Assembly (NCBI GenBank): GCA_947489315.1
Contig: CANLCX010000002.1
Coordinates: 62,001 to 126,000, forward strand
From: an uncultured Sphingomonadaceae bacterium
GTDB lineage: Bacteria > Pseudomonadota > Alphaproteobacteria > Sphingomonadales > Sphingomonadaceae
DNA: 64,000 bases
Direction of reading: 5' to 3'
Part shown: positions 1-35,647 of the stretch, in pieces
How positions within the stretch are numbered: the stretch's first letter is position 1
Layout: the number at the start of each line of letters is the position of its first letter
The notes under the pieces: generated by a model
The model's database searches: none
Told to the model about the DNA's origin: nothing
The model's input: only the letters and a program-made list of their open reading frames with translations
Position numbers and translations under genes: made by a program

Positions 1-49
1 GGTTTGGTGGCCAAGGTACCCGATGGGTCAGGAATAAAATCTCACCCAT
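1..49 (-). CDS. XrtA/PEP-CTERM-associated glycosyltransferase, N-terminal fragment (cut by window start)
   Basis: Only the first 16 codons lie in the window, reading leftward from an ATG at 49. They translate to MGEILFLTHRVPWPPN. The pattern ILFLxHRxPxPP is the start of the TIGR03087 sugar transferases (PEP-CTERM/EpsH1 system, GT4-like fold), which normally continue with a GDKIRS-type segment. The ATG shares one base with the TAA of the FemAB-like gene (TAATG), so the two are translationally coupled. The family assignment rests on this short motif plus the XrtA context. The rest of the gene, and probably exosortase itself, lies outside to the left. Confidence 0.7.
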   Translation of the reverse strand, partial: MGEILFLTHRVPWPPN

Positions 50-1122
50 TAGCCAAGGCCTTTGGCGATAATCGGCCCCAGACGGTTTGCAACAGAAAGA
101 GGCAGTTTTTGCCACAAGGCAACTTGCAGCTGATATTTTGGGCTCATCGGATTAACGTCGCGCGCTTCTTCGCCGTCTGCCGTGCGAATGGCATAGGATA
201 ATGGTTCCGGCTCAAAGCCCCAATTTTTCTTGAAAGAAAATGCGCCCGTCCCAACTTTTGAACGACCGAAATCAAACTGGTGGCAACGCCGCCCGCGAGC
301 GTGATTCATAAGCGCATAATACATCACATCATTGGCACGCAGCCGCCGCGCGGTGAAACTTCCGCCACCCCAATAGGGCATGACAGTTCCATTGTGATAA
401 AGGCTCAATACGCTGGCGACAGGCTTACCCTCGCTTGATACGGTCAGGATATCTGCATCCGAACCGAAAGCGTCCATGACCGCATCAAATAGTGCCTTTG
501 GAAATACGGGCGTACCCAGATTGCGCACGCTTTCCGCATAGACGCAATAATGGTCGGTACGATCTTGCTCATTCGTCCCTACACGAACAACAAGTTCGTT
601 TTTCAATCCCTTGCGAACTTCTGCCCGCTGCTTGCGCGGGATGGCGAGCAATTGATTCTCATCGTCGTCCGCTAAGTCCGCCACAAACCCGGCATAGACA
701 CCCTCTTTGTTCTGCCATTTATCGCAGGGCGTTGGTCCGCCTCGCAACTCAACGGTTGGAAAACTATGCGCCTCTGCAAATTCCCATACGGCATCGGCAA
801 GCAATTGTGTTGCCTGATCGCTAACGCTTAATATCCCGCCACCAACTGCGAAACCCGATGAAACCAGTGCCCGCCCAAATAACGCAGAATGGATAAGGTT
901 AAGAGGCAATATGGCCTGCAAATCCCCTTCGGTATTTTCGGCCAACATATAACGCCACTCATGACCGCAAGCCTTTGCGACAGCCACTACCCACTTTGGC
1001 CTGTGAAAAGCAGTGCCCCCCACATGATCGCCAACAAATTTATCAATCCGCGCTAGCTCATTCCGATCTTCCTGATCCAATGTACGAACTATGATCGCTT
1101 GCGGCGAGAAAGGCATATTCAT
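49..1122 (-). CDS. FemAB-like protein, XrtA/PEP-CTERM system-associated
   Basis: A 357-residue protein with the double GNAT-like layout of the FemAB/TIGR03019 family. The C-terminal half has the typical run YWGGG followed by ARRLRANDVMYYALM and the FDFGRSKVGTGAFSFKKNWG segment, which in these proteins lines the acyl-donor site. Family members sit in exosortase A loci and are presumed to transfer an aminoacyl or acyl group to a polysaccharide or lipid-linked sugar; the true substrate is unknown. It is a cytoplasmic protein with no signal peptide. It overlaps the deacetylase gene by four bases (ATGA) and touches the glycosyltransferase start downstream, so it is mid-operon. Confidence 0.88.
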   Translation of the reverse strand: MNMPFSPQAIIVRTLDQEDRNELARIDKFVGDHVGGTAFHRPKWVVAVAKACGHEWRYMLAENTEGDLQAILPLNLIHSALFGRALVSSGFAVGGGILSVSDQATQLLADAVWEFAEAHSFPTVELRGGPTPCDKWQNKEGVYAGFVADLADDDENQLLAIPRKQRAEVRKGLKNELVVRVGTNEQDRTDHYCVYAESVRNLGTPVFPKALFDAVMDAFGSDADILTVSSEGKPVASVLSLYHNGTVMPYWGGGSFTARRLRANDVMYYALMNHARGRRCHQFDFGRSKVGTGAFSFKKNWGFEPEPLSYAIRTADGEEARDVNPMSPKYQLQVALWQKLPLSVANRLGPIIAKGLG

Positions 1123-2021
1123 TGGGCCAACTCCCCTTCGAGAGCAGCCAATTCATCGACCCTCCCCCATACATAGTCTTTGCCGACGAGAACCAACTTT
1201 GAGCGCATCGAACGAAGCTTTGTGTAGTGGCGCAGCTTTGATTTAAGCGGAGCATTATCAACACGCGGTTGCTGCGGATCTATCTCCCACGGATGGAAAT
1301 AGAATATCGCGCCACGGCCATCATCCGTTTGCATTTTCCTAATAGCCCAATCATAAAGCGCATAAGGGAGCAGCCGAAAAAAACCGCCGCCGCCTGCAGC
1401 TAATATGCGACTTCCAATCTTCACCGTCGTCACAGGCAATTCGATCAAATCGGAGCCCGCCACTGGCTTCCACGCAAAGCGCGGCGAACCACCCCAGCCA
1501 TAGTGATCATGTTTGATCGGCGCGACACTCGACGAATAGCGATAACCCTGCTCCGCCAATATTTCATGGGCCCAAGGTGTACGTTGATCGATGGAGAAAC
1601 TCGGCGCGCGATAGCCAGTAACAGCTTGCCCAGAGCTATCTTCCAAAATCTTGCGGCTGCGTTCCAGATCCTTGCGGAACTGATCTGGCGTCAATGTGAA
1701 GACACGCGCGTGATCATAGCCATGGCTGGCCACCTCATGACCCGCCGCGACAATCCGCTGCATCAGTTGCGGATAGCGTTCAGCTACCCAACCCAATGTA
1801 AAGAAAGTTGCCTTAATCCCTACTTCATCGAACAAGTCCAAAACAGCATTGCTATTCTCTTCAACCCGATGTTCCAGGCTATCCCAGTCGGCGCGATCGA
1901 TTACCGTTTCAAAGGCACCAACCTGAAACCAGTCCTCAATGTCCACAGACATTGCGTTGAGCAAAGCATTTGCTTTTTTCGCCCTATTTATAGGTTCAGG
2001 CCGCGCGTCCTGCATTGACAT
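1119..2021 (-). CDS. XrtA-system polysaccharide deacetylase (NodB-type, DUF3473)
   Basis: A 300-residue carbohydrate esterase family 4 protein of the TIGR03006 type. The NodB domain is visible as SVDIEDWF near residue 25 (first metal-binding motif), FFTLGWVAERYP near 75, and HEVASHGYDH near 95 (HxxxH-type metal ligands). The C-terminal FHPWEIDP stretch is the DUF3473 extension. It probably removes N-acetyl groups from the exopolysaccharide or its lipid-linked precursor. I chose the ATG at 2021 because AAGGA sits five bases before it. This start overlaps the end of the ATPase gene by 26 bases. An internal Met nearer the NodB domain is possible. Confidence 0.9.
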   Translation of the reverse strand: MSMQDARPEPINRAKKANALLNAMSVDIEDWFQVGAFETVIDRADWDSLEHRVEENSNAVLDLFDEVGIKATFFTLGWVAERYPQLMQRIVAAGHEVASHGYDHARVFTLTPDQFRKDLERSRKILEDSSGQAVTGYRAPSFSIDQRTPWAHEILAEQGYRYSSSVAPIKHDHYGWGGSPRFAWKPVAGSDLIELPVTTVKIGSRILAAGGGGFFRLLPYALYDWAIRKMQTDDGRGAIFYFHPWEIDPQQPRVDNAPLKSKLRHYTKLRSMRSKLVLVGKDYVWGRVDELAALEGELAQ

Positions 2022-3270
2022 AGCTTTCCTTGCTCCGGATATCGCTTTCGACCCAATCCACGAGCATCGTCAAGATACGGTGCAGATTTTCTTCCTGGCT
2101 TCCCATTCGGGATTCCATCGCAGATAACTTTTCTGAAATAGCGTCAATACGAGCTAAAACTGCATCATCTGCGGCAGATGCGGAATTGATCAGAGGTTCT
2201 TCAGGCTGCACTGGCGGCAGTTCTGAGATACTGTCAACGCTTCGCAGGGATATAGGCTCATGTTCCTCTATAGCCGGAGCGACCGGCTGTTCGGTAACAG
2301 AGGAAGGAATGGACACAGCAACTTGCGGCTCCACCGTCTCAAAAACAGGTTCAGCCTCTTCGTCCGTTTCAGTTTGAGTTGAACGCGCCGGTTTCTCCCA
2401 TAGCGGACTTTTAACTGTTACCGGATCAATGACTTCTCCAGGTTCAGCAATATCCACCTCTTCACCGTTCAAATCGGCCAAGACACGGCCAACCAAAGCC
2501 TGATCTATCAGCTCGGCTTGCTCGACTGCGCCCATCAACAGAACGCGGCTCATCAACGTGTTGATCTTTCGCGGCACACCAGCTGTTTCGCTAAACAAAA
2601 GGTGAAATACATCAGATGTTATTTTTGGCCGTCCGGACCAGCCGCTTTTTGACAATCGGTGGGTGATATAAGGTTCGATTTCATGCGCTTCCATCGGTTC
2701 GAGATGGTGATGTGCAATCACTCGCTGACGCAATTGTTCCAATCGGTCTGATTGTTGCAATGTGTCGCGAAATTCTGGCTGACCCAGCAGAAATATCTGC
2801 AGCAGAGCTTGACCACCCAGTTGGAAATTGGAGAGCATCCGTAGCTCTTCCAAAGCACCGGTTGGCAGATTTTGTGATTCATCGACGATCAGCAAACACC
2901 GACGACCGGATCGAGCTTCGCTGTGCAAAAATTCTTCGAACGCGCTGAGCAGCTGCGCCTTGTCCATATTGTCGGTATCAATATTGAAATTATCGGCCAC
3001 GACGCGAACAATATCTTTGCTATCGAGCGCAGTCGTTACGACGTTGGCAGCAGTCAGTCGCTCCCGATCAATGGTTGCCATCAAGTGGCTTACCAGTGTG
3101 GTTTTACCAGCACCAACATCGCCCGTAATGACAATGAAGCCTTCGCCTTGAGCGAGGCCGTAGCCGAGATAGGATAATGCCTTCCGGTGAGTAATACTCT
3201 CGAAATAATAGTGCGGATCCGGAGTCAGCTGAAACGGCCGACTTTTCAATCCATAAAAGGTCTCATACAT
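1996..3270 (-). CDS. XrtA-associated AAA ATPase (ExeA/GspA-like)
   Basis: A 424-residue protein starting MYETFYGLKSRPFQLTPDP, the hallmark opening of the TIGR03015 secretion ATPases found with exosortase A. Walker A is GDVGAGKTT near residue 45 and Walker B is LLIVDESQNL near 125. The AAA domain ends near residue 260. The remaining third is acidic, proline- and glutamate-rich, with a short helical or coiled segment (LARIDAISEKLSAMESRM) at the tail. It may use ATP to position or assemble the envelope machinery. A GTG at 3285 is in frame, but the ATG at 3270 has GGGAGA seven bases upstream and matches the family start. Confidence 0.9.
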   Translation of the reverse strand: MYETFYGLKSRPFQLTPDPHYYFESITHRKALSYLGYGLAQGEGFIVITGDVGAGKTTLVSHLMATIDRERLTAANVVTTALDSKDIVRVVADNFNIDTDNMDKAQLLSAFEEFLHSEARSGRRCLLIVDESQNLPTGALEELRMLSNFQLGGQALLQIFLLGQPEFRDTLQQSDRLEQLRQRVIAHHHLEPMEAHEIEPYITHRLSKSGWSGRPKITSDVFHLLFSETAGVPRKINTLMSRVLLMGAVEQAELIDQALVGRVLADLNGEEVDIAEPGEVIDPVTVKSPLWEKPARSTQTETDEEAEPVFETVEPQVAVSIPSSVTEQPVAPAIEEHEPISLRSVDSISELPPVQPEEPLINSASAADDAVLARIDAISEKLSAMESRMGSQEENLHRILTMLVDWVESDIRSKESYVNAGRAA

Positions 3271-3305
3271 ATTGGTATCTCCCACCTACTCTTGCGGTGA
3301 TGCTA

Positions 3306-4928
3306 TTAAAATTCATATTGCAGGCCAAGCAATGCAGAGGCCGTGAGTTCGCTGTCAAAGCCATCCTGTTGAAAGCTGTCGAGACCAACGGCTGCCGTTC
3401 CGGTCAGGCCCGGAATGATCTGCCGATAGTAAGCCGCGTTGGCACCCAGAGCGAGCACGTTCGGTGCACCTGCAAAACCGCTATCCAGCAGATTCGCATA
3501 GACGTTGGTGTCAAAGCTGGACCGGGCATCAATCTGGCGACCGATTGAGAGATTGGCGTAATAATTTTCGTCCACCAAGCCATCTACACCAGACAAGCCA
3601 CCCAGTTGAGAGGCAAAGAACTTGCGGCGTGAATAACCGGCTGCCGCTGAAGCATTCCAGCCGTTATAGCCATAAGCCAGCTGCGCATTTACGCCGCGGG
3701 CACGGAATGACGAAGATGAAGCCGATTGCAAGGCATCGTTGAAGCAAAGGCTGCTCGTCTGGCCAAAGGCACAGCCGTTTAGCTCACCGCTCAATGGATT
3801 GCGACTGCTGGAAAAACTGGTTCCCAAAGATGCCAGATTATCATTCAGCAAGTTACCGAAACCCGACACCGTGTCATAAACCGAAACATTCAACGATGTG
3901 TTCTCATTGGGCTGGTAACCAAGACTACCCGAATAAGTGGTGCTGCCATAACGACGACCAACGCGTGCTTCGAGAGATGTCCGCCGACTAGGGCGCCACA
4001 ATACTCCAGCATCCCAAATCAGACCGTCCTCATCATAAGAAAGTAAGCGCGGAGACGCTTCATCAGTCACCAGACGACCATCATTGTCGATTACTGGATC
4101 CCCATTCACATCACGTAACGCATCGCGTTCCGAAATCTCAATATCTTCATAGCCGACACCGCCTACTAGGGCGACAGTCGGGGTAACAGGAACTGTAACA
4201 TCGGCGCGGACATATTTGCCCTCGAACCGCTGATCCAATTGCCCTGCATCTTCCCTTTCATAGCCTCCGCCAACCGACCAGCCGAAAGGTAAGTCACCTG
4301 GTTGCATACCAACGCTGGCGCTGGCTGAATGGCTGACGCTGTCGTCGAAAATATCTATTGGCAACTGGCCGGGAGGCAATATGCCGGTGTCTTCGCTTTC
4401 TACCTTCGTATAGCCCACACGGTAATTCGCATTTACATCCAAAGCGCCAATATTGGTCGATAAGGAAGGTCCGGCATAAACCGAATATACTTGCGTGACA
4501 TTGTCAATATTACCGACTGTATTGGACGGTGCTTCACCGCGTAGATCAATACGGCTGCGGGTGGCAATACCGCCCGCTTCAATGGCCAGGACGTTGGGCA
4601 CGACTTGGACACCGCCGCGTGCCAAACCGCTCAGGATATCATCGTCACCGATATTGTCCTGATAGAAGAAGCGACGCTCATAGCGCAGGTTCACTTGTGC
4701 TTCTGCCTGGCGAGTCTGGATCGATGTCTCAAGACCAGCGGCAACCGTCGTATAAGTCAATACATCAGAACCGTCTTTCAGATCGGCTACGAGTACCTGC
4801 TGCACTTCCAGATAAGGCGTAACGTCAACTTTTCGGTCACGGGCTTGCGCTGGCTGCACTGCAATCATCATCAACGGCGACAAGACCGCTCCGATTTTCA
4901 AAATACACATGGCTTTACGGCTGGTCAC
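3306..4928 (-). CDS. PEP-CTERM/XrtA-associated outer-membrane beta-barrel protein (TIGR03016-like)
   Basis: A 540-residue protein with a signal peptide ending near VQPAQA. The body is rich in alternating hydrophobic and polar strands with repeated YxxxxR/N patterns, and it ends in the aromatic residue expected of a barrel (LGLQYEF). It matches the TIGR03016 outer-membrane family that accompanies exosortase A polysaccharide genes. A likely role is passage or anchoring of the polymer at the outer membrane (inference). An open frame extends to 5018, but the start is best placed at GTG 4928. That codon is five bases after a GGAGAG site and two bases after the autokinase stop, and it gives a clean signal peptide. 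Confidence 0.83.
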   Translation of the reverse strand: MTSRKAMCILKIGAVLSPLMMIAVQPAQARDRKVDVTPYLEVQQVLVADLKDGSDVLTYTTVAAGLETSIQTRQAEAQVNLRYERRFFYQDNIGDDDILSGLARGGVQVVPNVLAIEAGGIATRSRIDLRGEAPSNTVGNIDNVTQVYSVYAGPSLSTNIGALDVNANYRVGYTKVESEDTGILPPGQLPIDIFDDSVSHSASASVGMQPGDLPFGWSVGGGYEREDAGQLDQRFEGKYVRADVTVPVTPTVALVGGVGYEDIEISERDALRDVNGDPVIDNDGRLVTDEASPRLLSYDEDGLIWDAGVLWRPSRRTSLEARVGRRYGSTTYSGSLGYQPNENTSLNVSVYDTVSGFGNLLNDNLASLGTSFSSSRNPLSGELNGCAFGQTSSLCFNDALQSASSSSFRARGVNAQLAYGYNGWNASAAAGYSRRKFFASQLGGLSGVDGLVDENYYANLSIGRQIDARSSFDTNVYANLLDSGFAGAPNVLALGANAAYYRQIIPGLTGTAAVGLDSFQQDGFDSELTASALLGLQYEF

Positions 4929-4930
4929 GG

Positions 4931-5851
4931 TTACTCTCCATATCCATAATAAGACCCAAAGCTCCGACCTGTCGGCGAGAATTTCGTGCCATTCAGGAGC
5001 AGTTGGATATTGTCGCAACCAGCCATCAGGCTAAGTGCGTCTCTTAATGCTGTTTCAGTTGTTTCATCGGCTTTCACGACCATAACCACTTGTCCGACAT
5101 GGGTCGCGAGCACGGATGCTGGCGACGCGGACAATGCAGGCGGTGAGTCAAAAATAACGATCCGGTTAGGATTGTGCTGGGTTAATCGGTTCAGCACCTC
5201 CTCGGTCCGAGATGATGCCAAATATTCAGTGTCGGCATTGGTTTGATCGCCAGCGGGTAAAATCGCAAGGCCGGCAATGTCCGTATGAATGATGCACTGT
5301 TCGACCGGCAGTTGCGGATCAGCCAGTGCATCCATCAGGCCTTTACTGCCTTCGAGACCCAGGCTCGACAAAATGCTCGGTTTTGCAAAGTCGGCATCGA
5401 CCAGCAAAACTTCGTTATCTTTCTCTGCCGCAATCGAAAGCGCCAGATTCAACGCACAGAAAGTCTTGCCTTCGTTCGGATGAGCGGAACAAATTAATAT
5501 CCGCTCACCATGCGGCAAGGCTGCTTGCTTTGTGCTACCTTTGGCAGCCATCAGCAATTGGCGCTTGATGATCCGAAATTCTTCAGAAATGCCGCTTACA
5601 GGCCCATCTGGAACGACAAAGCCGGACTCGCGCAACTTGTCACGATCAACGATAACGCGCGGGCCATCATAAGCAGCAGCCCGCTGAGGGACAGTCCGCA
5701 CAACCTGTTTGGATTTTGCGGCTTCTGGCGGTAAAATATCAGGCCCGTAATTTTGATCTGGGCCACTCGTTTTGGAGGGCACATAGTCATAGACCTGTGC
5801 TGCGCGTTCCAGCAGAGAGCTGGATTTGCTGAGGGGATTATATTTGTTCAT
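4931..5851 (-). CDS. XrtA-associated tyrosine autokinase (CpsD/BY-kinase)
   Basis: A 306-residue cytoplasmic bacterial tyrosine kinase of the TIGR03018 type. Walker A is CSAHPNEGKT at residues 121-130, Walker A' is VDADF at 151-155, and a Walker B-like segment IVIFDSPPAL follows near 230. The tail SYYGYGE carries the short tyrosine cluster that such kinases autophosphorylate. With the chain-length protein encoded just upstream, it forms the usual Wzz/Wzc-type pair controlling polymer length through cyclic autophosphorylation. The kinase and its membrane activator are separate genes, as in Gram-positive CpsCD, which is normal for XrtA loci. Confidence 0.93.
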   Translation of the reverse strand: MNKYNPLSKSSSLLERAAQVYDYVPSKTSGPDQNYGPDILPPEAAKSKQVVRTVPQRAAAYDGPRVIVDRDKLRESGFVVPDGPVSGISEEFRIIKRQLLMAAKGSTKQAALPHGERILICSAHPNEGKTFCALNLALSIAAEKDNEVLLVDADFAKPSILSSLGLEGSKGLMDALADPQLPVEQCIIHTDIAGLAILPAGDQTNADTEYLASSRTEEVLNRLTQHNPNRIVIFDSPPALSASPASVLATHVGQVVMVVKADETTETALRDALSLMAGCDNIQLLLNGTKFSPTGRSFGSYYGYGE

Positions 5852-5860
5852 CTTCTCTCC

Positions 5861-7411
5861 TCAAGCAACCATGCCGCGCTGGATAAATTCAACGACCATC
5901 AACAGGCCAAACACGCCAAATAGAGCCCCGCCCGCACTGTAAAACAGACGCATTTTCTTTTGACGAAGGACGCGCTGGCTGTTGGTCAATATTTGTGAAA
6001 CGGAACCGATAACAGGCAATCCGCTGGCTTTCTCAAGTCGAGCCGCCGTCGGGTAGCTTGTCCGCAACTGACCCAACGCAAAGGCAGCACCTACTCCTCC
6101 GCCAATACCTACAAAGAGCACCATCGCGAGCAGCAACGGGCGATTCGGCGCCGCAGGTGAACGCGGGCTAGAAGGTGGATCGATAACCTTGAATTTTACC
6201 GAATCTGTTTGTGATTCAACCTGCCCGCGTAACTTGATCTGCTCGCGGTCCTGAAGCATTTTATCATATTGGTTTTTCAGCACATCATGATCGCGATTGA
6301 TCCGCGCCATTTCCGCTGCAACGCCGGGTTCCAAAGACTGCTTTGAGGCGAGCTGCGCCATATCCGCCTGAATGGCGTTTTTGCGCGCCTGAAGCGCCGC
6401 TACAGAGGCTTGACGCTCGGCACGCATGCTCTGCAAAGAACTATAGGCTGGATTAGGTGTCCGATAGCCAGAGCTACCAGACCCTTTAGGTTGCGCTGCA
6501 ACTTGCGCACGCAACGCCGCTATCTGGCTCTTCATCGCGATTATATCGGGATGACTGTCCGTCCATCCCCGCGCGCGGGCTGACGCCAATTGTCCTTGGG
6601 CTTGCGATAGCTGTCCACGAGCGCCGCCACCTGAGCTTCCGCCATTGAATCCCGGCGTGGCAATAGTCGGCGGTGTGCCCGATAACTGACCGTTTAATGC
6701 CGCGAGGGAGCTTGAGGCAGAACCCAGCTGCGATTCAATCTGGCTTAACTCTGCTCGAGACGCCTCGATACGTTGGCTGATTGAACCGACACCCGGTAAA
6801 AGGCCTAGGTTTTCGGTCTCGAACTGAACCCGTTTTTGCTCGGCCTCCTGCAAATCCTTTTCGCGACTTGCCAGCTGCGCATCGAGAAATTTCAGGGTCT
6901 GACTGGTTTCATCGCGGTCACCTGACAGGTTTTCCTCAACAAATATATCAATCATCTTTTGAACAATTTCACGCGACAGAACAGCGTTTTCTGCGTCCGA
7001 CAAATTACTCGCCGATGCAGTTGCAGTGATCTCAAAAAGATTGTCTTTTTCTGATTTTATTTCGATACTCTTACGCAGCATCTCGACTTTGCCGGCCAAT
7101 TCGCGATCACTGGCGACAGAGAGATTTAAGTCCGTCCCGCGCACAACTTTTTCCAGATTGATGGTCGAAGCCAGTGTTTCCTGAACCCGGTCCATATTTC
7201 TTTTCCGGTCGCGCGATTCAATCCCCACCTTTTCAGACAAGATAGATTGCATTTCAACAAACACGCGCGCTTTGGATTCATAACTGTTCGGGATCAATGC
7301 AACGACAAGCCAACCCAATAGGCAAATGCCCCAAGCCACCGCCAATGCAAGCCAACGCCTGTTCCAGACGCTGTGCAATGCTATTCGAATTTCATCATAA
7401 AGGCCGTTCAT
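5861..7411 (-). CDS. XrtA-system polysaccharide chain-length determinant (Wzz/GumC-like)
   Basis: A 516-residue inner-membrane protein. A first membrane segment lies at about residues 20-40 (LALAVAWGICLLGWLVVAL) and closing segments near 425-450 and 485-505. Between them is a long periplasmic domain with extended coiled coils (around 160-240 and 330-390) and a Gly/Ser-rich patch near 255. This is the TIGR03007 architecture. It should set polymer length with the autokinase encoded nine bases downstream. It lacks its own kinase domain. The conserved proline-rich segment before the last membrane helix is present (DPPSSPRSPAAPNRP). Confidence 0.92.
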   Translation of the reverse strand: MNGLYDEIRIALHSVWNRRWLALAVAWGICLLGWLVVALIPNSYESKARVFVEMQSILSEKVGIESRDRKRNMDRVQETLASTINLEKVVRGTDLNLSVASDRELAGKVEMLRKSIEIKSEKDNLFEITATASASNLSDAENAVLSREIVQKMIDIFVEENLSGDRDETSQTLKFLDAQLASREKDLQEAEQKRVQFETENLGLLPGVGSISQRIEASRAELSQIESQLGSASSSLAALNGQLSGTPPTIATPGFNGGSSGGGARGQLSQAQGQLASARARGWTDSHPDIIAMKSQIAALRAQVAAQPKGSGSSGYRTPNPAYSSLQSMRAERQASVAALQARKNAIQADMAQLASKQSLEPGVAAEMARINRDHDVLKNQYDKMLQDREQIKLRGQVESQTDSVKFKVIDPPSSPRSPAAPNRPLLLAMVLFVGIGGGVGAAFALGQLRTSYPTAARLEKASGLPVIGSVSQILTNSQRVLRQKKMRLFYSAGGALFGVFGLLMVVEFIQRGMVA

Positions 7412-7450
7412 GGGTCTTTTCGATTCCTATCAATGGGCAACAAACGCGGA

Positions 7451-8107
7451 CTAAAACATGCTCTTTGGGATGATGATCACATCACCAGGACGCAGCATGA
7501 CATTGGCTTTGGTTTGGCCGCGTTCCAGCAAATCAGCGATGCGCAAGCCATATTCCTGCTGTTTGCCAGTCCCGCGATTATAGCGAACGAGGCGCGCCTT
7601 ATTGCCGGATGCAAATTCGGAAAGCCCGCCCACTGCGATCATTGCATCGAGCAATGTCATATTGGCGCGGTATGGAATTGAGGCTGGTTTCTCCGTCGCA
7701 CCGACAACCCGGATTTGCTGGGAAAACGTGCCCGAAAAATTATTGACGATAACCGACACCAGCGGCTCGTTAATATATTCCGACAATTGCAGTTTCAGAT
7801 CTTGAGCCAACATAGCGGGTGTTTTGCCTACGGCTGGCATATCGGTAATCAGGGGTGTGGTGATTCGACCATCGGGACGAACCTGAACCTTCGCGCCCAA
7901 TTCAGGGTTGCGCCAAACAAAGATGGTGAGCTCGTCGAGCGGTCCGATGACATATTCTTCACCGGGACCTTCTTGCATCGACACAAAGGAAGCTGGCGGC
8001 AGCTGCGGGCCTGAAGACACGCCAGAACAGCCGGCTACCGCTAGGGAAGCCAAACCCGCACCGATCATATATTTCGGTAGCTTCTTATTTTTGAACGCAG
8101 CAGTCAT
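7451..8107 (-). CDS. XrtA-system exopolysaccharide export lipoprotein (Wza-like)
   Basis: A 218-residue lipoprotein with lipobox LAVAGC about 25 residues in, followed by the polysaccharide export (Poly_export) domain starting GPLDELTIFVW and an SLBB domain ending RPGDVIIIPKS. This matches TIGR03027. It should form the outer-membrane export channel of the EPS pathway. An open frame reaches 8170, but the ATG at 8107 has GAGGA seven bases upstream and gives a proper lipoprotein signal. It is the first gene of the leftward export operon after a 172-base gap. Confidence 0.93.
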   Translation of the reverse strand: MTAAFKNKKLPKYMIGAGLASLAVAGCSGVSSGPQLPPASFVSMQEGPGEEYVIGPLDELTIFVWRNPELGAKVQVRPDGRITTPLITDMPAVGKTPAMLAQDLKLQLSEYINEPLVSVIVNNFSGTFSQQIRVVGATEKPASIPYRANMTLLDAMIAVGGLSEFASGNKARLVRYNRGTGKQQEYGLRIADLLERGQTKANVMLRPGDVIIIPKSMF

Positions 8108-8279
8108 TTTCAATTCCTCGCAAACAGCCGTTGGCGACCAACCGATTCCACGAGGAAATAGGTCGATCACGCATAATCACGAGGAAGCTATCGGCGAAAA
8201 TAGTGAAGATAGCGTTAGGATTGACAGAAATTAGGGTTAATATTTGGCTGTTTTCATGGGATTGTGGAGTCTGACCAGT
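8108..8279 (-). promoter_or_regulatory. Probable promoter region of the XrtA export operon
   Basis: This 172-base gap separates the export lipoprotein gene from the co-directional decarboxylase gene and is the longest break in the leftward XrtA series. It contains two direct copies of CACGAGGAA (8149-8157 and 8178-8186, 29 bases between starts), which could be a binding site for a dimeric regulator. I found no clear sigma-54 -24/-12 pair and no unambiguous sigma-70 boxes. The promoter role is inferred from position. Confidence 0.3.
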
Positions 8280-9515
8280 TCAACTGACAAATATTTCCTT
8301 CGCCGGTCCCTGCCCTAGGAAGTTTGCGGGACTGGCCGTTGCGCCATAGGCACCAGCGCAGAATATAGCGACAATATCTCCAACCTGCGCTGCCGGCATT
8401 TGTGCACTATCGCTAAGCAGATCGAGCGGTGTGCAGAGACACCCTACAATAGACACGACCTCATTGGAGGGCTTGTCATATTGGGTTGCGATCGCTGCGG
8501 GATAGTTCCGGCGAATGACGGTTCCGAAATTGCCACTGGCGGCAAGTTGATGATGCAGCCCGCCATCGGTAATCAGAAATGTCTCGCCTTGGCTTTCTTT
8601 GCGATCAACGATTTGCGTCAGATAAACCCCCGCTTCCCCGACTAGGTAGCGCCCGAGCTCTAGGGCGAATTGGGTTCCCGACAATATCGCTGGCAGATCG
8701 GACAACTGCTGGTTCAGAGCAGCACCAATTTCCCCGATGTCCAAAGCTTCGTCCTTGGGAAAATAGGGTATGCCAAAGCCGCCGCCCAGATTGACATGCT
8801 CTGGACCATGACCGATTTCTTCGGCCAGTCGAGCGGCCAGCGCAATAGTCTGCGCTTGAGTTTCGATAATGGCATCTGCTTTCAGAGCCTGCGAACCTGC
8901 GAAAATATGAAAGCCCCGCCAATGCGCTCCGGCTGCCAGAATTTTATGCACGGTTGGCGCTACAAGGCCGACATCCATGCCAAATTGCTTGGCCCCTCCA
9001 CCCATTTTCATGCCGGAGCCTTTAAGATCAAAGTCGGGATTCACCCGAACGGCGAGCCGGGGCTGCAGCCCTTTCTTTGCGCCAATCGCTAACGCGCGGT
9101 CGCACTCGGTGGGAGATTCGATGTTGATCGTGATGCCGGCCTTGATGGCTGCAAGCAATTCATCATCGCGCTTACCGGGACCAGCAAAGCTAATTTTCTT
9201 GTCGGCCGCTCCAGCTTTCAACGCCATCACCAATTCACCGCCTGAGGCAATATCAATCCCGTCAACAAGCCCGACCATATGCGAAAGTACCGGCGCATAG
9301 GGATTGGCTTTCATAGCATAGTGAATATGCAATTGTTCCGGCATTGCAGCCCGCAACGCGCCAATACGCGAGCTTAACAAGCGTTTGGAATAAACAAATA
9401 AGGGCGAACCATGTTCGGCGACCAAAGCGCTAACTTTCGCGCCGCTAATCGCTAGCTCTCCGTCTAGGCTGTCATAGCCGCTGGGTATCGGACCGATAGG
9501 TTTGACTCTGCTCAT
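8280..9515 (-). CDS. PLP-dependent decarboxylase, exosortase A system-associated
   Basis: A 411-residue fold-type III PLP enzyme (Orn/DAP/Arg decarboxylase 2 family), matching TIGR03099. The lysine that should bind PLP is K69 in HYAMKANP. The phosphate-binding glycine loop is NLGGGFG and the C-terminal active-site face is represented by ITDGGLHHQL and CTPLDLL. By family it would decarboxylate a diamino or amino acid, but the XrtA-linked clade has no proven substrate. Its start overlaps the acyl-CoA ligase stop by four bases, and together with the ACP on the other strand this suggests that the ligase activates an acid that is later processed here or loaded on the carrier (inference). Confidence 0.92.
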   Translation of the reverse strand: MSRVKPIGPIPSGYDSLDGELAISGAKVSALVAEHGSPLFVYSKRLLSSRIGALRAAMPEQLHIHYAMKANPYAPVLSHMVGLVDGIDIASGGELVMALKAGAADKKISFAGPGKRDDELLAAIKAGITINIESPTECDRALAIGAKKGLQPRLAVRVNPDFDLKGSGMKMGGGAKQFGMDVGLVAPTVHKILAAGAHWRGFHIFAGSQALKADAIIETQAQTIALAARLAEEIGHGPEHVNLGGGFGIPYFPKDEALDIGEIGAALNQQLSDLPAILSGTQFALELGRYLVGEAGVYLTQIVDRKESQGETFLITDGGLHHQLAASGNFGTVIRRNYPAAIATQYDKPSNEVVSIVGCLCTPLDLLSDSAQMPAAQVGDIVAIFCAGAYGATASPANFLGQGPAKEIFVS

Positions 9516-11053
9516 AGTTTTTCATTCTTTGCCAAAGCGTTACGATCTATCTTACCATTGGGGTTCTTAGGAAACTCTTGGAGTATAATAATATCGCGAG
9601 GGTACATAAAATTGGGTAAATTCCGCTTGAGAAATTTGCGCAATTCCTTCTCAACATCCTGATGTTCCTGAACTTCTGTCGGTCGAACATAAAGACAAAT
9701 CGCGTGCCCTAACCGCTCATCAACCACCCCGACAGCCACAGCTTCCGCAACAATCCCTGATTCCACAGCAACTTCTTCAACTTCTGTGGGACTAATCCGA
9801 TTGCCGGAACTCTTGATCATATTGTCGGTCCGCCCGACAAAATAGAGCAAGCCATCTTCATCCCGACGAACCGTATCTCCCGACCAAACCGCTATCCCCC
9901 CATATTTTGATGCCGAGGGCGCTGGTTTAAAGCGCTCGGCAGTCCGTTCTTCATCTTGCCAATAGCCCTGGGCTGCCAACGGTCCGGCATGAACCAATTC
10001 GCCCTCTTCGCCGACAGCGGCAATTTGGCCGTCTGAGCCCACCACCATGATTTCAGCAAAGGGAATCGCGGTTCCCATGCTCGTCGGATTATCGTCAATC
10101 AACGCGGGATCAAGATAGGTAGAACGAAAGGCCTCGGTCAGGCCATACATGGCGTATATATCTGTCTGATCACCAAAAATGAACCGCAACTGCTTCACCA
10201 AAGGTGGCGTCAAAGCCCCGCCGCTATTGGTTAGTCGCCGCATCGATGTAGTCGCTTCCTCAGGCCAATCCTGATCCACCAATTGCACCCAAAGCGGCGG
10301 TACAGCAGCCAAAGTCGTTATCTGTTCACGAGCACATGCCTTGATCACATCACGTGGTGTCAGATAGTCCAGCGGATAGGCGCAACCGCCAGCATACCAG
10401 GTCGAAAGCAACTGATTCTGCCCATAATCAAAACTGAGCGGAAGAACGCATAACGTGCGGTCATGCTTCTCCAGCTTCAAATATTGCGCAACACTAATCG
10501 CGCCAAGGCTCAGATTAGCGTTGCTAAGCATAACTCCCTTGGGCCGTCCGGTTGATCCGCTCGTATATAAGATCGCCGCCAAGGCATCGGAGTTCTCAGA
10601 AATCTCGCTAGGGTCCAAAGGACCGTCGATCTGCTCCAGGTCGCTGGATGCGGCGGCATCGTCCCAAATCACGCAAGCCTCATCCAGAGGCGTATCTGCC
10701 AATGACTTTATGCGTCCGGCGTTGGTAATGAGAAGTTTGGCATCACTATCAGCAACAATATGATGTACTTGTGGCGGTTTTAGAACCGGATTGATCGGTA
10801 CATGGACCAATCCCGCCCGGACTGCTGCCAAAGGCATAATACAAGCCAATTCGGTCTTTGGCAGCCATGTTCCCACCCGGTCGCCCTTATCCAGGCCCTG
10901 ACCCAATAACCAACGCGCCAGCGTACCCACACGATGATTTAACATCTTGTAGCTAAGAGACCCTGAGCGCGTGACCAATGCCGTCGCCTCAGGGTTCTCA
11001 CCCATGGCAAGACGATCCAAAGGGAATGCCGCGTTTGTGAATTGAGTGTTCAA
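9512..11053 (-). CDS. Acyl-CoA ligase (AMP-forming), exosortase A system-associated
   Basis: A 513-residue ANL-superfamily adenylating enzyme of the TIGR03098 type. The AMP-binding P-loop is YTSGSTGRPKG near residue 165, the A5-type motif is YGLTE near 300, the hinge-region motif GRTDNMIKSSGNRISP lies near 400, and the catalytic lysine motif PNGKIDR is close to the C terminus. The start appears to be TTG at 11053, because the next Met would cut into the conserved N-terminal segment. It activates a carboxylic acid as the adenylate, for CoA or for the acyl carrier protein encoded at 12171. It is divergently transcribed from the acetyltransferase gene with only 32 bases between them. Confidence 0.92.
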   Translation of the reverse strand: MNTQFTNAAFPLDRLAMGENPEATALVTRSGSLSYKMLNHRVGTLARWLLGQGLDKGDRVGTWLPKTELACIMPLAAVRAGLVHVPINPVLKPPQVHHIVADSDAKLLITNAGRIKSLADTPLDEACVIWDDAAASSDLEQIDGPLDPSEISENSDALAAILYTSGSTGRPKGVMLSNANLSLGAISVAQYLKLEKHDRTLCVLPLSFDYGQNQLLSTWYAGGCAYPLDYLTPRDVIKACAREQITTLAAVPPLWVQLVDQDWPEEATTSMRRLTNSGGALTPPLVKQLRFIFGDQTDIYAMYGLTEAFRSTYLDPALIDDNPTSMGTAIPFAEIMVVGSDGQIAAVGEEGELVHAGPLAAQGYWQDEERTAERFKPAPSASKYGGIAVWSGDTVRRDEDGLLYFVGRTDNMIKSSGNRISPTEVEEVAVESGIVAEAVAVGVVDERLGHAICLYVRPTEVQEHQDVEKELRKFLKRNLPNFMYPRDIIILQEFPKNPNGKIDRNALAKNEKL

Positions 11054-11085
11054 ATGCTTGAGCCTATGGGAAAAAGTACAAAATT

Positions 11086-12126
11086 GTGACAGACATGACG
11101 GTAACGATGAACAGTGAATATCACGATAATTTCCAGTCGGCGCAAGCCGTGGCTGGCGAAAAACTTGGCCGGACCGGTCAAAAGTCTCTGTTTGACCGGC
11201 TGGACTGGTTGAAACAGCTGCATGAACTTTGCCTCCCGGGTAACCAACCGCTTATTGTTCAAAGCGCTGAAAATGACGCGCAAGCTTGGTTGTTCCTTAT
11301 GAAACAGGGATTGGGCCACTATAGCGCCCTCGCCAACTGGTATAATTTTACCTATCGACCGATTTTCGCTGATGAATATGATGAAGTCACCAAATTGGCT
11401 CTCCTTGCCAGCGTGGCCAAAAAACTCACTTCTCAATGCCATCGCATAGAAATTTCTCCGGTTCCGGAAGAAGACAATGCGGCAAGCCTGACCGAACGAG
11501 CCTTTGAGCAAGCCGGTTGGGTCGTTTTCAAGTCGAAGGCGGATGACAATCATATCCTTTCCGTCAACGGTCGCACATTTGACCAATATTGGGCTACACG
11601 GCCGGGACAATTGCGCAATACTGTCCGCCGCAAAGCCAAGAAAAATATCGTTTCCATCCGGATTGAGAGCGAGTTTTCCGAAGAGCATTGGGCAGATTAT
11701 TGCGACGTTTACAGCAAAAGCTGGAAACCCGAGGAAGGCAATCCGGATTTTCTGAGAAACATCGCAAAACAGGAAGCCAGCGCCGGATGTTTGCGCCTCG
11801 GTCTCGCCTATATTGATGGCGTTCCGGTAGCCGCACAATTCTGGACGGTAGAAAATGGCGACGCGCTGATTCACAAGCTGGCCCATGTTGAAGATGCGAC
11901 CAAATCATCACCAGGCACATTGCTTTCGGTTGCCATGTTTCAGCATGCCATCGATGTCGACGGTGTTAAGCTGATTGATTTTGGCACCGGCAATGATCCC
12001 TATAAACGTGAATGGATGGAAGATGTTCGCACCAGATATCGTCTGGACATGTTTTGGCCCAACAACCCCCTTTCATGGCTATCTATTCTGCGGTACCAGA
12101 TGTCAGCCCTTGTAGGAAAGCGTTGA
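11086..12126 (+). CDS. GNAT/CelD-like acyltransferase (BioF2-like), XrtA locus
   Basis: A 346-residue protein with the C-terminal GNAT fold of CelD/FemAB-like enzymes (Acetyltransf_6). Visible landmarks are RPGQLRNTVRRKAKK near residue 170, the acceptor-side segment GVPVAAQFW, and LIDFGTGNDPYKREW near the end. It has no signal peptide and is presumably cytoplasmic. It likely transfers an acyl group to a small molecule or sugar, and the nearby ACP and acyl ligase are plausible donors (inference). The start is uncertain: GTG 11086, ATG 11095 and ATG 11107 are all possible and none has a strong ribosome site. It leads the rightward XrtA unit. Confidence 0.75.
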   Translation: MTDMTVTMNSEYHDNFQSAQAVAGEKLGRTGQKSLFDRLDWLKQLHELCLPGNQPLIVQSAENDAQAWLFLMKQGLGHYSALANWYNFTYRPIFADEYDEVTKLALLASVAKKLTSQCHRIEISPVPEEDNAASLTERAFEQAGWVVFKSKADDNHILSVNGRTFDQYWATRPGQLRNTVRRKAKKNIVSIRIESEFSEEHWADYCDVYSKSWKPEEGNPDFLRNIAKQEASAGCLRLGLAYIDGVPVAAQFWTVENGDALIHKLAHVEDATKSSPGTLLSVAMFQHAIDVDGVKLIDFGTGNDPYKREWMEDVRTRYRLDMFWPNNPLSWLSILRYQMSALVGKR

Positions 12127-12170
12127 TCGCTTTAGGGAAGCGCCGTTATCCGGGAGTCGGGGGTTAATTA

Positions 12171-12443
12171 ATGTCGGAAAATCTTGATTTGACACCAGAG
12201 GCCGCTGTGCGTGCCGTCATGCAAGACATATTAGGATTAGACGCTGATCAAGTCAGCGCGTTTACCGCAGATACCGAGCTTTTCGGAGCTTTGCCAGAGC
12301 TCGACAGCATGGCTGTTGCCGGGCTACTCACCGAACTTGAAGATCGCCTCGACATCATGATCGAGGATGATGAGGTCGACGGGGAACTGTTCGAGACTTT
12401 CGGCAATCTCGTTGCCTTTGCTGAGATGAAAGCAGCTGAGTGA
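12171..12443 (+). CDS. Acyl carrier protein of the XrtA-linked module
   Basis: A 90-residue acidic four-helix carrier protein. The phosphopantetheine attachment serine is S46 in LDSMAVAG, the expected DSM/DSL motif at the start of helix II. It is distinct from the fatty-acid ACP, since it is longer, more acidic and sits among exosortase-associated genes. It ends in the four-base overlap GTGA with the hydrolase 2 gene, so it is translated with the two hydrolases. It probably carries the acyl intermediate activated by the AMP-forming ligase (9512-11053), but the chain it carries cannot be read from sequence. Confidence 0.9.
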   Translation: MSENLDLTPEAAVRAVMQDILGLDADQVSAFTADTELFGALPELDSMAVAGLLTELEDRLDIMIEDDEVDGELFETFGNLVAFAEMKAAE

Positions 12444-13150
12444 GCGCAGCGCTCGAATATGCGCGTTACGAGTTTGAGGGAAATGACGAGCTTTGCCTGA
12501 AGGCGGGTTCTCACCATCCCAAAAATATTCTTCTGATCCCTCCCCTATTCGATGAAATGAACCGGATGCGGCGGATGCTGCTCGACGTGATGCGGCTACT
12601 CGACGCTAAGGGCATTGGCAGCGCCTTACCGGATCTTCCCGGCACTAACGAAAGCCTTTTTCCGCAGGAACACGCCAGCCTCACGATATGGCGGCAAGCC
12701 CTTCTTGCCTGCAGCGCCCAACTGCCACTACCGCTATATGTCGCTTCCTTCCGTGGAGGATGTCTCATCGATGACTTTACCGAGGATGCAAGGCAATGGC
12801 GGTTCTCCGCAGTCAAAGGCCAAATGCTGCTGAGAACCATGATGCGCACGCGCATTGCCTCCGATAAAGAGGCGGGGCTATCAACCAACATGGCGCAATT
12901 GAGCGCAGAGGCCGGCCAAGGCCAGGTCAATTTGGCGGGTAACAGCATTGGGTCTGCTCTGTTTTCGCAGCTGGAAGAGGCGGTCGCTTCGCCATCACCC
13001 GATGTACGAGCAACCCAATTGGAGAGCAGCACCCGAGCCGCTGATACAAAACTGCCCGGTTCCGCGCTTTGGTTACGGGCAGAACCTGACGATGACCTGT
13101 TGCTCTCGGCTGCCATTGCCGATGATCTAGCCTCTTGGGTTTCAGCATGA
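12440..13150 (+). CDS. Hydrolase 2, exosortase A system-associated (alpha/beta fold)
   Basis: A 236-residue alpha/beta-hydrolase-like protein of the TIGR03101 type, starting with GTG inside the ACP stop (GTGA). The opening strand region reads NILLIPPLFDEMNRMRR, typical of the family, and DLPGTNES follows. The nucleophile elbow position reads ASFRGG with no serine or cysteine in the GxSxG place, so classical hydrolase chemistry is doubtful. It is followed by hydrolase 1 with an ATGA overlap. With the ACP and ligase it belongs to the XrtA-linked acyl module, where it could be an acyltransferase-like or structural partner (inference). Confidence 0.82.
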   Translation: MSAALEYARYEFEGNDELCLKAGSHHPKNILLIPPLFDEMNRMRRMLLDVMRLLDAKGIGSALPDLPGTNESLFPQEHASLTIWRQALLACSAQLPLPLYVASFRGGCLIDDFTEDARQWRFSAVKGQMLLRTMMRTRIASDKEAGLSTNMAQLSAEAGQGQVNLAGNSIGSALFSQLEEAVASPSPDVRATQLESSTRAADTKLPGSALWLRAEPDDDLLLSAAIADDLASWVSA

Positions 13151-13968
13151 CGCGGTCCTTTCATCCCTTTGAATGCGAAGAACAGATGCTCGCTGGCACG
13201 CTTGATGAAGGCCCCTTGACGACCGGTCTGCTCATCGTCAGCGGCGGCAATGAAATCCGCTCTGGGGCGCATGCCGGCATGGCTAAATTGGCCCGAAATA
13301 TTGCGGAGCGCGGCTATCCGGTCTTCCGTTATGACCGCCGGGGTGTCGGGGATAGCACTGGCGCCAATCAGGGGTTTCTGGAAACACAGGCCGATATTGG
13401 CTCCGCCATTGAACAGTTTCATGACATCAACCCTCAAATCCAGAAAATCGTCGCCTTTGGCAATTGCGATGCAGCGACTGCCTTGGCGTTGTTCGGTGCG
13501 GACATAGCCATGGATATGTGCGTACTGGCCAATCCTTGGGTTATTGAAGCCGCCGATATATCGCCCGAAGGCCCGACCGCTCCACCACCATCGGCGATAC
13601 GGTCGCGCTATTGGGAGCGCCTGAAGAATCCAAGGTCGATTATCGATCTATTTACCGGTAAAATAGACCTAAGAAAACTTGCTAAAGGCCTTAAGCAAGC
13701 GACTCAAAAACAAGAGAATACAGCCCTATCAATCCGGCTCAGCGATGGTCTGATCCGATTGGGCGTTCCTACCCGCATATTGCTCGCAAACCGCGATACG
13801 ACGGCTCGTGCTTTCCTCGCGGCATGGAACAGCAAAGGCTTCAAGGCGGTCAGAGCATTGCCGAACATCTCAACCGAAACACTGGACAGTGCATCACACA
13901 GCTTTGCCGATGACAATTCCAAGCTATGGTTAGAAAACCAGCTTTTGGAAGCCCTCGAAAACGCCTGA
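13147..13968 (+). CDS. Hydrolase 1, exosortase A system-associated (alpha/beta fold)
   Basis: A 273-residue alpha/beta hydrolase of the TIGR03100 type. The oxyanion region is LLIVSGGNEIRSGAHAG, followed by VFRYDRRGVGDS. The nucleophile elbow is GNCDAA, so cysteine replaces the usual serine, a feature of this subgroup. Aspartate and histidine candidates follow near LLANRDTTA and DSASHSFAD. The start is ATG 13147 in the ATGA overlap with hydrolase 2. An upstream TTG at 13135 has less support. It probably releases or transfers a thioester-bound acyl group from the ACP (inference). It converges on trxB with 14 bases between stops. Confidence 0.86.
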   Translation: MTRSFHPFECEEQMLAGTLDEGPLTTGLLIVSGGNEIRSGAHAGMAKLARNIAERGYPVFRYDRRGVGDSTGANQGFLETQADIGSAIEQFHDINPQIQKIVAFGNCDAATALALFGADIAMDMCVLANPWVIEAADISPEGPTAPPPSAIRSRYWERLKNPRSIIDLFTGKIDLRKLAKGLKQATQKQENTALSIRLSDGLIRLGVPTRILLANRDTTARAFLAAWNSKGFKAVRALPNISTETLDSASHSFADDNSKLWLENQLLEALENA

Positions 13969-15324: not shown

Positions 15325-15400
15325 GTGCTCCGCACTTGATGCGGAGCCAGGGTAGACGGGCGTGACAGCCATCCTGGGCTCCGCATCAAGTGCGGAGCAC
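15325..15400. repeat. REP-like inverted repeat pair
   Basis: Two inverted copies of a roughly 28-base unit, 15325-15352 and 15373-15400, match at about 26 positions around a 20-base spacer. Each copy is itself palindromic (CTCCGCA, 5-base loop, TGCGGAG). The sequence could form either two small hairpins or one long cruciform. Elements of this sort are dispersed in alphaproteobacterial genomes. Just beyond, CCAAAGTTCACAC occurs twice (15431-15443 and 15478-15490), the second copy ending four bases from the stop of the next gene. Confidence 0.7.
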
Positions 15401-16588: not shown

Positions 16589-17266
16589 ATGATGATTCGC
16601 AAGGTACTCTACATGACATTGGCAAGTGGTCTCGGGTTGATGGCTGCTTCTGCGCAAGCAGCTATTGTTGTCTATTCGGGCTATGACGAAGGTGCTGCTG
16701 CTCCCGGAGCAAACACAAATGCAGCGGAATCGGCTTTTCTGGCCGCAACTGGATCGCTCGATATTATTGATTTTGAGAGCGCTTTGCCGTCTGGCGTGAC
16801 TGTGACGGGAGGCACCGTCCGCAGTACTCCACCGGGCGCGCCGCAATTCTGGGGTTCAAACGTAACGCCTGGAGGGTCGTTCTATCTTGACTTTCGTGGC
16901 GATGTAACATTCGGTTTTGACGCTCCGATCGACTCTTTTGGTCTTGTTATGGGTGGATTGCAGGGTCCCAACACGATTAGCTGGGTTAATTCTTTAGGAT
17001 CACAGCAAGTCAGTGTAGTTAACAATGGAGGAGGAAGCGGATTCGCCTTTCTCGGATTTACTGATGCAGGTGAAATGATAAGCTCAATAACGGTAAGCTC
17101 GCCTGGAGATTTTGATGGGCTTGATGATGTCCGCTTCGGAAGAATCGGAATACCTGCAGTTCCTGAACCGGCCACCTGGGCAATGATGCTTGTGGGCTTT
17201 GGCTTTATAGGCGGCGCAATGCGAGCCCGCAAACGACAGCCGGCGAAAGTGCGCTTCGCCTTCTAA
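16589..17266 (+). CDS. PEP-CTERM sorting-domain protein (PEPxxWA type)
   Basis: A 225-residue secreted protein. An N-terminal signal peptide ends near ASAQA (residue 25). The C terminus carries the full tripartite PEP-CTERM signal: VPEPATWA near residue 191, a hydrophobic helix (MMLVGFGFIGGAM) and an Arg/Lys-rich tail (RARKRQ). Such proteins are exported, held by the tail, then processed by exosortase. The body is Gly/Ser/Asn-rich with low charge, typical of this secreted class. The start is ATG 16589 or the adjacent ATG 16592, both behind GGGGG. A strong terminator follows. It is the only evident XrtA substrate in the window. Confidence 0.92.
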   Translation: MMIRKVLYMTLASGLGLMAASAQAAIVVYSGYDEGAAAPGANTNAAESAFLAATGSLDIIDFESALPSGVTVTGGTVRSTPPGAPQFWGSNVTPGGSFYLDFRGDVTFGFDAPIDSFGLVMGGLQGPNTISWVNSLGSQQVSVVNNGGGSGFAFLGFTDAGEMISSITVSSPGDFDGLDDVRFGRIGIPAVPEPATWAMMLVGFGFIGGAMRARKRQPAKVRFAF

Positions 17267-28619: not shown

Positions 28620-29053
28620 GATGACAATCCTCTCTTCAATCCAATGGGCGCGATGCGGGGTTTCCCGATCCGATACGGCTGCTTTTCCAGCACTCGTTGG
28701 TCATGGGAATTTCTGGCTCGCCTAAAATTTAGTTCCGCGCGTTCTTCGCGAAGGGTCGAGATATGCGCCGATGACCGGAGGGTCGCTGCGATGTGTTGCG
28801 CCTCAGCGATCTTCTGTTTCTGGACGCTGCTTAGCGTTATCAACCGATGCCCAAATTCCAACCTGCTTGCGAGCATAGCCGACTGGCTGCAATCAATCGT
28901 GCCGAGCATGTCGTCCGCCATCGCTAATATTTGAGCGTGCGACATTTCCAGTCGCACGGCCTGACTCTCGGCATGGACCAAATCCCGTTGGGTCAATTTG
29001 GCTTGCAGCCGGCAAACGCCGAGTAACCGCTTTTTTGCGTGCATATTGTTCAT
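28616..29053 (-). CDS. fliJ: FliJ-position coiled-coil protein
   Basis: A 145-residue, highly charged, mostly helical protein located where fliJ normally lies, between fliI and fliK, with ATGA overlaps on both sides. The pattern of long helices (LQAKLTQRDLVHAESQAVRL, and a second around residues 75-115) fits the antiparallel coiled coil of FliJ, the export-ATPase stalk. Sequence identity to FliJ is not obvious by eye and the tail is unusually basic and proline-containing, so the assignment rests on position and fold. Confidence 0.7.
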   Translation of the reverse strand: MNNMHAKKRLLGVCRLQAKLTQRDLVHAESQAVRLEMSHAQILAMADDMLGTIDCSQSAMLASRLEFGHRLITLSSVQKQKIAEAQHIAATLRSSAHISTLREERAELNFRRARNSHDQRVLEKQPYRIGKPRIAPIGLKRGLSS

Positions 29054-33808: not shown

Positions 33809-33809
33809 A

Positions 33810-34145: not shown

Positions 34146-34148
34146 GGA

Positions 34149-34457: not shown

Positions 34458-34525
34458 CATCTTCCCCAATATCTGGTCCTAAGATACCGCATCTGAAACT
34501 GTGAAATGCGGCTGACTATGGCTTC

Positions 34526-34540
34526 GCAAACGCTGTGCCA
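34526..34540 (-). promoter_or_regulatory. Sigma-54 promoter for the fliE operon
   Basis: On the minus strand the sequence reads TGGCAC, five bases, TTGC (GG-N10-GC), a perfect match to the -24/-12 consensus. Transcription would start near 34514 and run through a leader of about 370 bases to fliE. The matching arrangement upstream of flhA and flgB makes a chance hit unlikely. Confidence 0.8.
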
Positions 34541-35579: not shown

Positions 35580-35609
35580 GTCACTGGTCCGCTTAACTGG
35601 TCTTAAGGT

Positions 35610-35646: not shown

Positions 35647-35647
35647 G

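Follow-up and report, generated by a model that had tools for sequence, protein, structure and literature searches.

Vitamin B5 and coenzyme A are built in part from beta-alanine, which PanD, the usual enzyme and one of the pyruvoyl type, makes from free aspartate with neither ATP nor a carrier. In three other described systems the amino acid is held on a carrier. For vicenistatin (VinN/VinO/VinL), the ANL ligase VinN loads the beta-carboxyl of 3-methylaspartate, its preferred substrate, on a stand-alone acyl carrier protein (ACP; PMC11284099); a pyridoxal phosphate (PLP) enzyme then acts as decarboxylase on the carrier, and the product goes into a polyketide. In the butirosin system (BtrI/BtrJ/BtrK), BtrK removes CO2 from carrier-held glutamate (PMC7857480), leaving gamma-aminobutyrate (GABA) on the carrier. 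BolO/BolN/BolC of bolagladin biosynthesis in Burkholderia gladioli are proposed (PMC7756342) to turn aspartate into beta-alanyl-ACP, which is passed to a nonribosomal peptide synthetase (NRPS) whose partners are KAS III-like and desaturase enzymes. Here we analysed a 64,000-nucleotide stretch of DNA from an uncultured Sphingomonadaceae bacterium (contig CANLCX010000002.1, positions 62,001 to 126,000; the window), in which six genes at positions 8280 to 13968 include a ligase, an ACP and a decarboxylase of this kind. These three genes (the core, or triad) probably encode a self-contained, ACP-dependent replacement of PanD, by which aspartate is turned into beta-alanine. The six genes are:

8280-9515, minus strand: PLP fold-III decarboxylase, TIGR03099; predicted beta-aspartyl-ACP decarboxylase; core
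9512-11053, minus strand: AMP-forming ligase, TIGR03098; predicted L-aspartate (beta-carboxyl):ACP ligase; core
11086-12126 (likely start 11107), plus strand: GNAT/Acetyltransf_6 protein, PF13480; accessory that tracks exosortase A (XrtA)
12171-12443, plus strand: ACP, dedicated carrier with phosphopantetheine serine S46, PF00550; core
12440-13150, plus strand: hydrolase 2, diverged, alpha/beta-hydrolase-like, nucleophile lost, below the TIGR03101 cut-off; XrtA-tracking accessory
13135-13968 (likely start 13147), plus strand: hydrolase 1, TIGR03100; XrtA-tracking accessory

The original prediction had placed five of these genes, with their motifs, in an XrtA-linked module; genes and motifs were confirmed at their coordinates, including K69 of the decarboxylase and S46 of the ACP, and the acyltransferase it had mentioned is the PF13480 protein between the ligase and ACP genes. 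The decarboxylase and ligase genes overlap by 4 bp; the end of the ACP gene overlaps that of hydrolase 2, which in turn overlaps the hydrolase 1 gene. An ATG at 13147 overlaps the stop of the hydrolase 2 gene and is more likely the start of hydrolase 1 than 13135.

In the proposed route, the ligase would adenylate the beta-carboxyl of L-aspartate and load it on the phosphopantetheine arm of ACP Ser46. With the substrate still on the carrier, the PLP enzyme would then release its free alpha-carboxyl as CO2 and leave beta-alanyl-ACP. Beta-alanine would be freed by a putative thioesterase or by hydrolysis, and PanC would couple it to pantoate on the way to coenzyme A. In genomes with XrtA, this beta-alanyl-ACP may also supply the GNAT protein, the cysteine hydrolase and the pseudo-hydrolase for a purpose at the cell surface. 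PanD replacement is based on family membership, recognition residues, gene order, exclusion in two genome samples, an in-place exchange with panD and independence from XrtA. The gene families are known and the chemistry has precedents; no proposal of a carrier-dependent PanD substitute filed under exosortase was found in the open-licence literature searched.

The ligase exceeds the curated cut-off of TIGR03098 (646 bits against 592). The best solved match to its binding region was 3wv4/3wvn, entries that we take to be VinN. When the whole length was searched, two-domain gramicidin synthetase entries came ahead on summed score (303 bits), with a best single domain of 164 bits that lies below the 195 bits of 3wvn. 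Subtracting 16 from the chain numbers fitted the VinN numbering, as it yields Asp230, Ser299 and Arg331, the VinN-type recognition residues whose roles are given in PMC7756342. All three are present in the window ligase; in a control alignment its middle triad residue was shifted by one column and reads G. Across the fetched loci, 86 ligases of the family were counted (partial ligases L077, L112 and L114 left out; some loci repeat a genome), with DSR in 81 and DTR in 5. The 30 TIGR03098 matches given as loci in a phylum sample had DSR in 16, DTR in 8 and DAR, GAR and CGL in 2 each, and neither the Asp nor the Arg of the triad occurred in any of 11 control ANL enzymes. The best reading is that the ligase loads the aspartate beta-carboxyl on the ACP, with aspartate as best substrate, as proposed for bolagladin. 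Activation of the D-alanine (Dlt) type was rejected: the DltA models matched weakly, scoring 167 and 172 bits where 560 and 476 are required, and the VinN triad favours a beta-carboxyl. The ACP carries S46 in 80 of 80 aligned rows (the conservation counts omit the repeat loci L097 and L080), and its closest solved chain is 2lki.

The decarboxylase exceeds the TIGR03099 cut-off (560 bits against 478). Automatic annotation might label it a second diaminopimelate decarboxylase, and TIGR01048 does match it, at 245 bits. That identity is extremely improbable: the score is below the cut-off of 298, the same genome has a separate LysA (L002, 429 bits), the LysA motifs (RPxxY or RPxxY-like, and CExxD) are absent, and a tree separated LysA at 100/100. 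A dedicated diaminopimelate/lysine decarboxylase was rejected on the same grounds. The closest solved relative is BtrK, at 242 bits and 36% identity over 384 aligned residues, with the best diaminopimelate decarboxylase at 163 bits. KMGG, DGG(L/M)HH and LCTPxD are common to the decarboxylase and BtrK and differ in the LysA of this genome and in one solved LysA; the fork that joins BtrK is less well supported, at 93/85, with BtrK on a long branch. The substrate is best read as an amino acid with free alpha-amino and alpha-carboxyl groups whose side-chain carboxyl is held on the ACP. A BtrK-like decarboxylase beside a VinN-like ligase with its recognition residues kept points to a core that most likely makes beta-alanyl-ACP from aspartate. 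The earlier idea of an activated acid that goes onto a carrier and is processed there gains support, as an inference, and can be given a predicted substrate and product.

Compared with the described systems, the locus shares with VinN/VinO/VinL the ANL ligase, the stand-alone ACP, the subsequent PLP decarboxylation on the carrier and the D/S/R triad, whereas a role in primary metabolism is proposed here; counterparts of VinM, VinK and VinJ were not recognised in the window locus. BolO/BolN/BolC are likewise described as having VinN-like and BtrK-like enzymes, with the same proposed conversion. The butirosin system provides the closest solved relative of the decarboxylase, but its partner ligase is presumably of another type than that of the window. 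With PanD, to which the core enzymes are unrelated, the locus would share the net product, the cellular role and, in one genome discussed below, the chromosomal slot.

An initial search found no PanD in any of 20 genomes (18 with TIGR03099, plus G007 and G015 without it), and 8 of 14 control genomes matched. In a sample of 197 genomes of the order, 147 had TIGR03099 (E up to 1e-90; 144 of them exceed the curated cut-off) and 20 had PanD, with an overlap of 0 (Fisher p 4e-14). In the phylum sample of 200 genomes the corresponding counts were 10 over the cut-off and 123 with PanD, again without overlap (p 5e-5). PanC was present in 184 of the 197 order genomes and in 145 of the 147 with TIGR03099. 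The core and PanD are mutually exclusive and PanC is kept. Outside the order, one family (f26) contains a genome with the triad and no PanD (G019) and two with PanD and no decarboxylase over the cut-off (G082, G196). In the order sample, a genus of another family (g158 of f63) contributed 11 genomes that lack PanC, PanD and TIGR03099 together, as expected of pantothenate auxotrophs.

The enzymes are of the same kinds as those of bolagladin and vicenistatin, which raises the question of a starter cassette for a specialised metabolite, outside central metabolism. Lower-scoring relatives of the decarboxylase (L013 to L026) show no exclusion, with PanD in 6 of their 14 genomes, and some of them may be such cassettes. 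For the family itself we regard this explanation as distinctly improbable, given that TIGR03099 occurs widely across the order (over the cut-off in 144 of 197 genomes) and excludes PanD, that several loci with the triad alone lie among the housekeeping genes truA, fmt, def, pyrG and trxB, and that no NRPS or polyketide synthase gene was seen among the annotated neighbours.

An exchange with panD in the same slot was seen in one genus (g118, 17 genomes), where 14 genomes have TIGR03099 and no PanD (13 over the cut-off) and the other 3 have PanD and no TIGR03099. Seven triad loci of the 14 were fetched and all 7 read def-x-fmt-truA-decarboxylase-ligase-ACP-trxB-pyrG, with 2.4 and 4.7 kb of other sequence separating the ACP gene from trxB in L166 and L167. 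In G338 panD fills the slot between truA and trxB, with no further recognised gene there; in G380 it adjoins truA, and the fetched stretch does not reach trxB. No ligase, decarboxylase or ACP gene was found in the three panD stretches of this genus that were examined.

The relation to XrtA was followed in named genomes, using the best 80 of 568 relatives, a set that leans to close kin; the titles give Sphingomonadales taxa, or bins assigned no further than Alphaproteobacteria or Proteobacteria. Within this set the nearest locus is that of Sphingorhabdus sp. 109 (74% decarboxylase identity). Flanks were too short in 14 of the 80 loci, leaving 66. All six genes occur with exopolysaccharide (EPS) genes in 49 of these; in 2 (L145, L151) the GNAT protein alone is missing, with EPS genes and hydrolases present; 5 (L076, L081, L090, L102, L103) have the six genes and no EPS genes in the fetched flank; and 10 hold the triad only, without the GNAT protein and hydrolases 1 and 2, two of them retaining an EPS-set gene for an ATPase or a deacetylase. 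None of the 10 triad-only genomes had XrtA over its cut-off, and all three XrtA controls were positive; a weaker match of another exosortase (124 to 145 bits) appeared in 3 of the 10. Likewise, XrtA over the cut-off was absent from all 17 genomes of g118, of which 14 have the decarboxylase, one with a weaker exosortase match. In the phylum sample, TIGR03099 and XrtA were each over the cut-off in 10 genomes and together in 8, with G107 and G155 having the decarboxylase without XrtA, and G007 and G015 the reverse. TIGR03098 was over the cut-off in 9 genomes, all within the 10 with TIGR03099 (at most 7 candidates were scored per genome). The triad of G107 (L065) lies near glycosyltransferase and polysaccharide-deacetylase-like genes, and the XrtA model found no match in that genome.

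The core triad is not tied to exosortase A. In a tree, the triad-only members are scattered among XrtA-bearing ones (L104, for example, pairs with G087 at 100/97), and this scatter suggests that XrtA was lost repeatedly and the core retained. The original prediction and the family names imply instead a module dedicated to XrtA, the product of which would decorate EPS or act as an exosortase A linker. The 49 of 66 loci with six genes and EPS genes, the 8 of 10 TIGR03099 genomes of the phylum sample with XrtA, and hydrolase 1, which passes its cut-off in all 3 XrtA controls but in none of the 10 triad-only genomes, speak for it. Loci with the ligase or decarboxylase and no XrtA genes, which the original prediction had itself said would contradict it, were looked for and, with XrtA judged by its cut-off, occur in all 10 triad-only genomes. 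A strict XrtA role for all six genes is ruled out for the core by these genomes and by g118; together with G107 and G155, the in-place exchange with panD, and the XrtA genomes G007 and G015 without an over-cut-off decarboxylase, they make a dedicated module improbable. The name "XrtA-linked" is not supported for the core. Of the accessory genes, hydrolase 1 follows XrtA where tested; judged by locus, so do hydrolase 2 and the GNAT protein.

Hydrolase 1 exceeds the TIGR03100 cut-off (214 bits against 168); in the 10 triad-only genomes and the 3 controls alike, weak generic hydrolase matches were also seen. It has a conserved Cys-Asp-His set, predicted from the alignment as Cys111-Asp221-His255 (numbered from start 13135): the cysteine of GNCDAA is present in 64 of 65 rows, the remaining row reading X, and D221 and H255 in 64 of 65 each. 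Hydrolase 2 falls far short of TIGR03101, at 38 bits against a cut-off of 203, and was aligned with the hydrolase 2 of L066, which passes at 274 bits. Its elbow residue (in ASFRGG) is hydrophobic in 64 of 65 rows, with Cys in one (L068), and is followed by Arg105 in all 65; N41, R44, D65, R105 and R136 are the conserved residues. Both motifs had been read correctly before, but what was called odd is a trait of the families and not peculiar to this genome. Among solved structures the GNAT protein had no match, hydrolase 1 had a single weak one, to a gamma-lactamase, and the matches of hydrolase 2 were weak and to alpha/beta hydrolases. In L068, both hydrolases lie in a single open frame of 592 residues (8468-10243), hinting that they work as a pair. 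In L066 and L067 (G102), the decarboxylase, ACP and both hydrolases are clustered, and the best-scoring ligase is about 1.9 Mb off.

The GNAT protein and the two hydrolases would be candidates for moving or releasing the beta-alanyl group. This leads to a compatible extension of PanD replacement, in which the core feeds coenzyme A everywhere and, in genomes with XrtA, the three accessory proteins divert beta-alanyl to a surface glycan or lipid. The tracking of XrtA by these proteins, the overlap of the ACP, hydrolase 2 and hydrolase 1 genes and the shared frame in L068 argue for it; the lack of a known acceptor, the two loci without the GNAT protein despite EPS genes and hydrolases, and the five six-gene loci with no EPS genes in the fetched flank argue against it, and we hold it as a tentative possibility. 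A more specific version, unlikely as it stands, would make beta-alanyl-ACP a shared hub for coenzyme A supply and for a glycan or lipid of XrtA genomes whose primary amine accepts PEP-CTERM proteins from exosortase A.

Several points weigh against PanD replacement. The recognition residues alone may also fit glutamate, leading to GABA, or 3-methylaspartate. In g118, the panD of G361 lies about 5 kb from trxB, with truA outside the fetched stretch, and the three panDs are 72 to 79% identical to each other and therefore probably mark a single event. Ancestry is shared within the samples, so that the p values overstate the exclusion; 17 of the 20 PanD genomes of the order sample belong to one family. 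Two TIGR03099 genomes lack PanC, and 30 genomes of the order sample have neither PanD nor TIGR03099; 19 of these 30 have PanC and, like the XrtA genomes G007 and G015 without either, indicate that other sources of beta-alanine exist. To our knowledge, no thioesterase accompanies the triad-only loci. Maturation of an ACP needs coenzyme A, and the route therefore depends on its own end product. Finally, the decarboxylase mutant of the bolagladin system was reportedly not rescued by feeding of beta-alanine, so that beta-alanine on a carrier can itself be what such enzymes are there to make.

The window locus lies beside a classical XrtA EPS locus, the genes of which are:

49-7411, minus strand: FemAB, deacetylase, ATPase, outer-membrane protein, Tyr kinase and chain-length determinant; XrtA/EPS locus
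7451-8170, minus strand: polysaccharide export protein, TIGR03027; neighbouring XrtA/EPS locus

Across 49-8170, TIGR03019, 03006, 03015, 03007 and 03027 were over their cut-offs, and 03018 and 03016 matched below theirs. XrtA itself lies about 1.25 kb beyond the window edge, at G000:C2:59972-60748, and a protein with a PEPxxWA-CTERM sorting signal is encoded near this locus at 16589-17266 on the plus strand. Scans for promoters and terminators gave results near chance level. At 15327-15398, GCTCCGCACTTGATGCGGAGC occurs in two perfect copies, one per strand and spaced 30 bases (0.02 expected by chance), an arrangement resembling a REP-type element. At 29050-38529 and 47122-48450 there are flagellar genes (FliI-like ATPase, FliG, FliF, FHIPEP family, FlgK).

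The proposed route fits a gap in how sphingomonads make beta-alanine that is already in print. In a survey of 204 alphaproteobacteria (PMC7142369), 22 rows of Table A2 for Sphingomonadales and Erythrobacter give aspartate decarboxylase (ADC) in 0 of 22, beta-ureidopropionase (PYD3) as zero in 20 of 22, GAD as zero in 20 of 22, and PanC as 1 in 21 of 22. ADC, PYD3 and GAD are all zero for Erythrobacter sp. SD-21 in that survey, and this strain is our triad-only locus L099. The gap is not universal, since E. litoralis and NAP1 carry GAD in the same source; for rhizobia its authors favour pyrimidine degradation.

If PanD replacement is true, it would provide named genes for the beta-alanine gap of the sphingomonads in that table, which have no PanD and mostly also lack beta-ureidopropionase and GAD. 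Of the families named "exosortase A system-associated" (TIGR03098 to TIGR03101), those of ligase, decarboxylase and hydrolase 1 recognise the window proteins above their curated thresholds, but the association that the names imply is unneeded by the ligase and decarboxylase, and hydrolase 2 is far below its cut-off. Two of these families, ligase and decarboxylase, would thus leave the core of the exosortase system, with the GNAT protein and hydrolases 1 and 2 as the likelier partners of XrtA, and a chemistry of antibiotic pathways would move into central metabolism.

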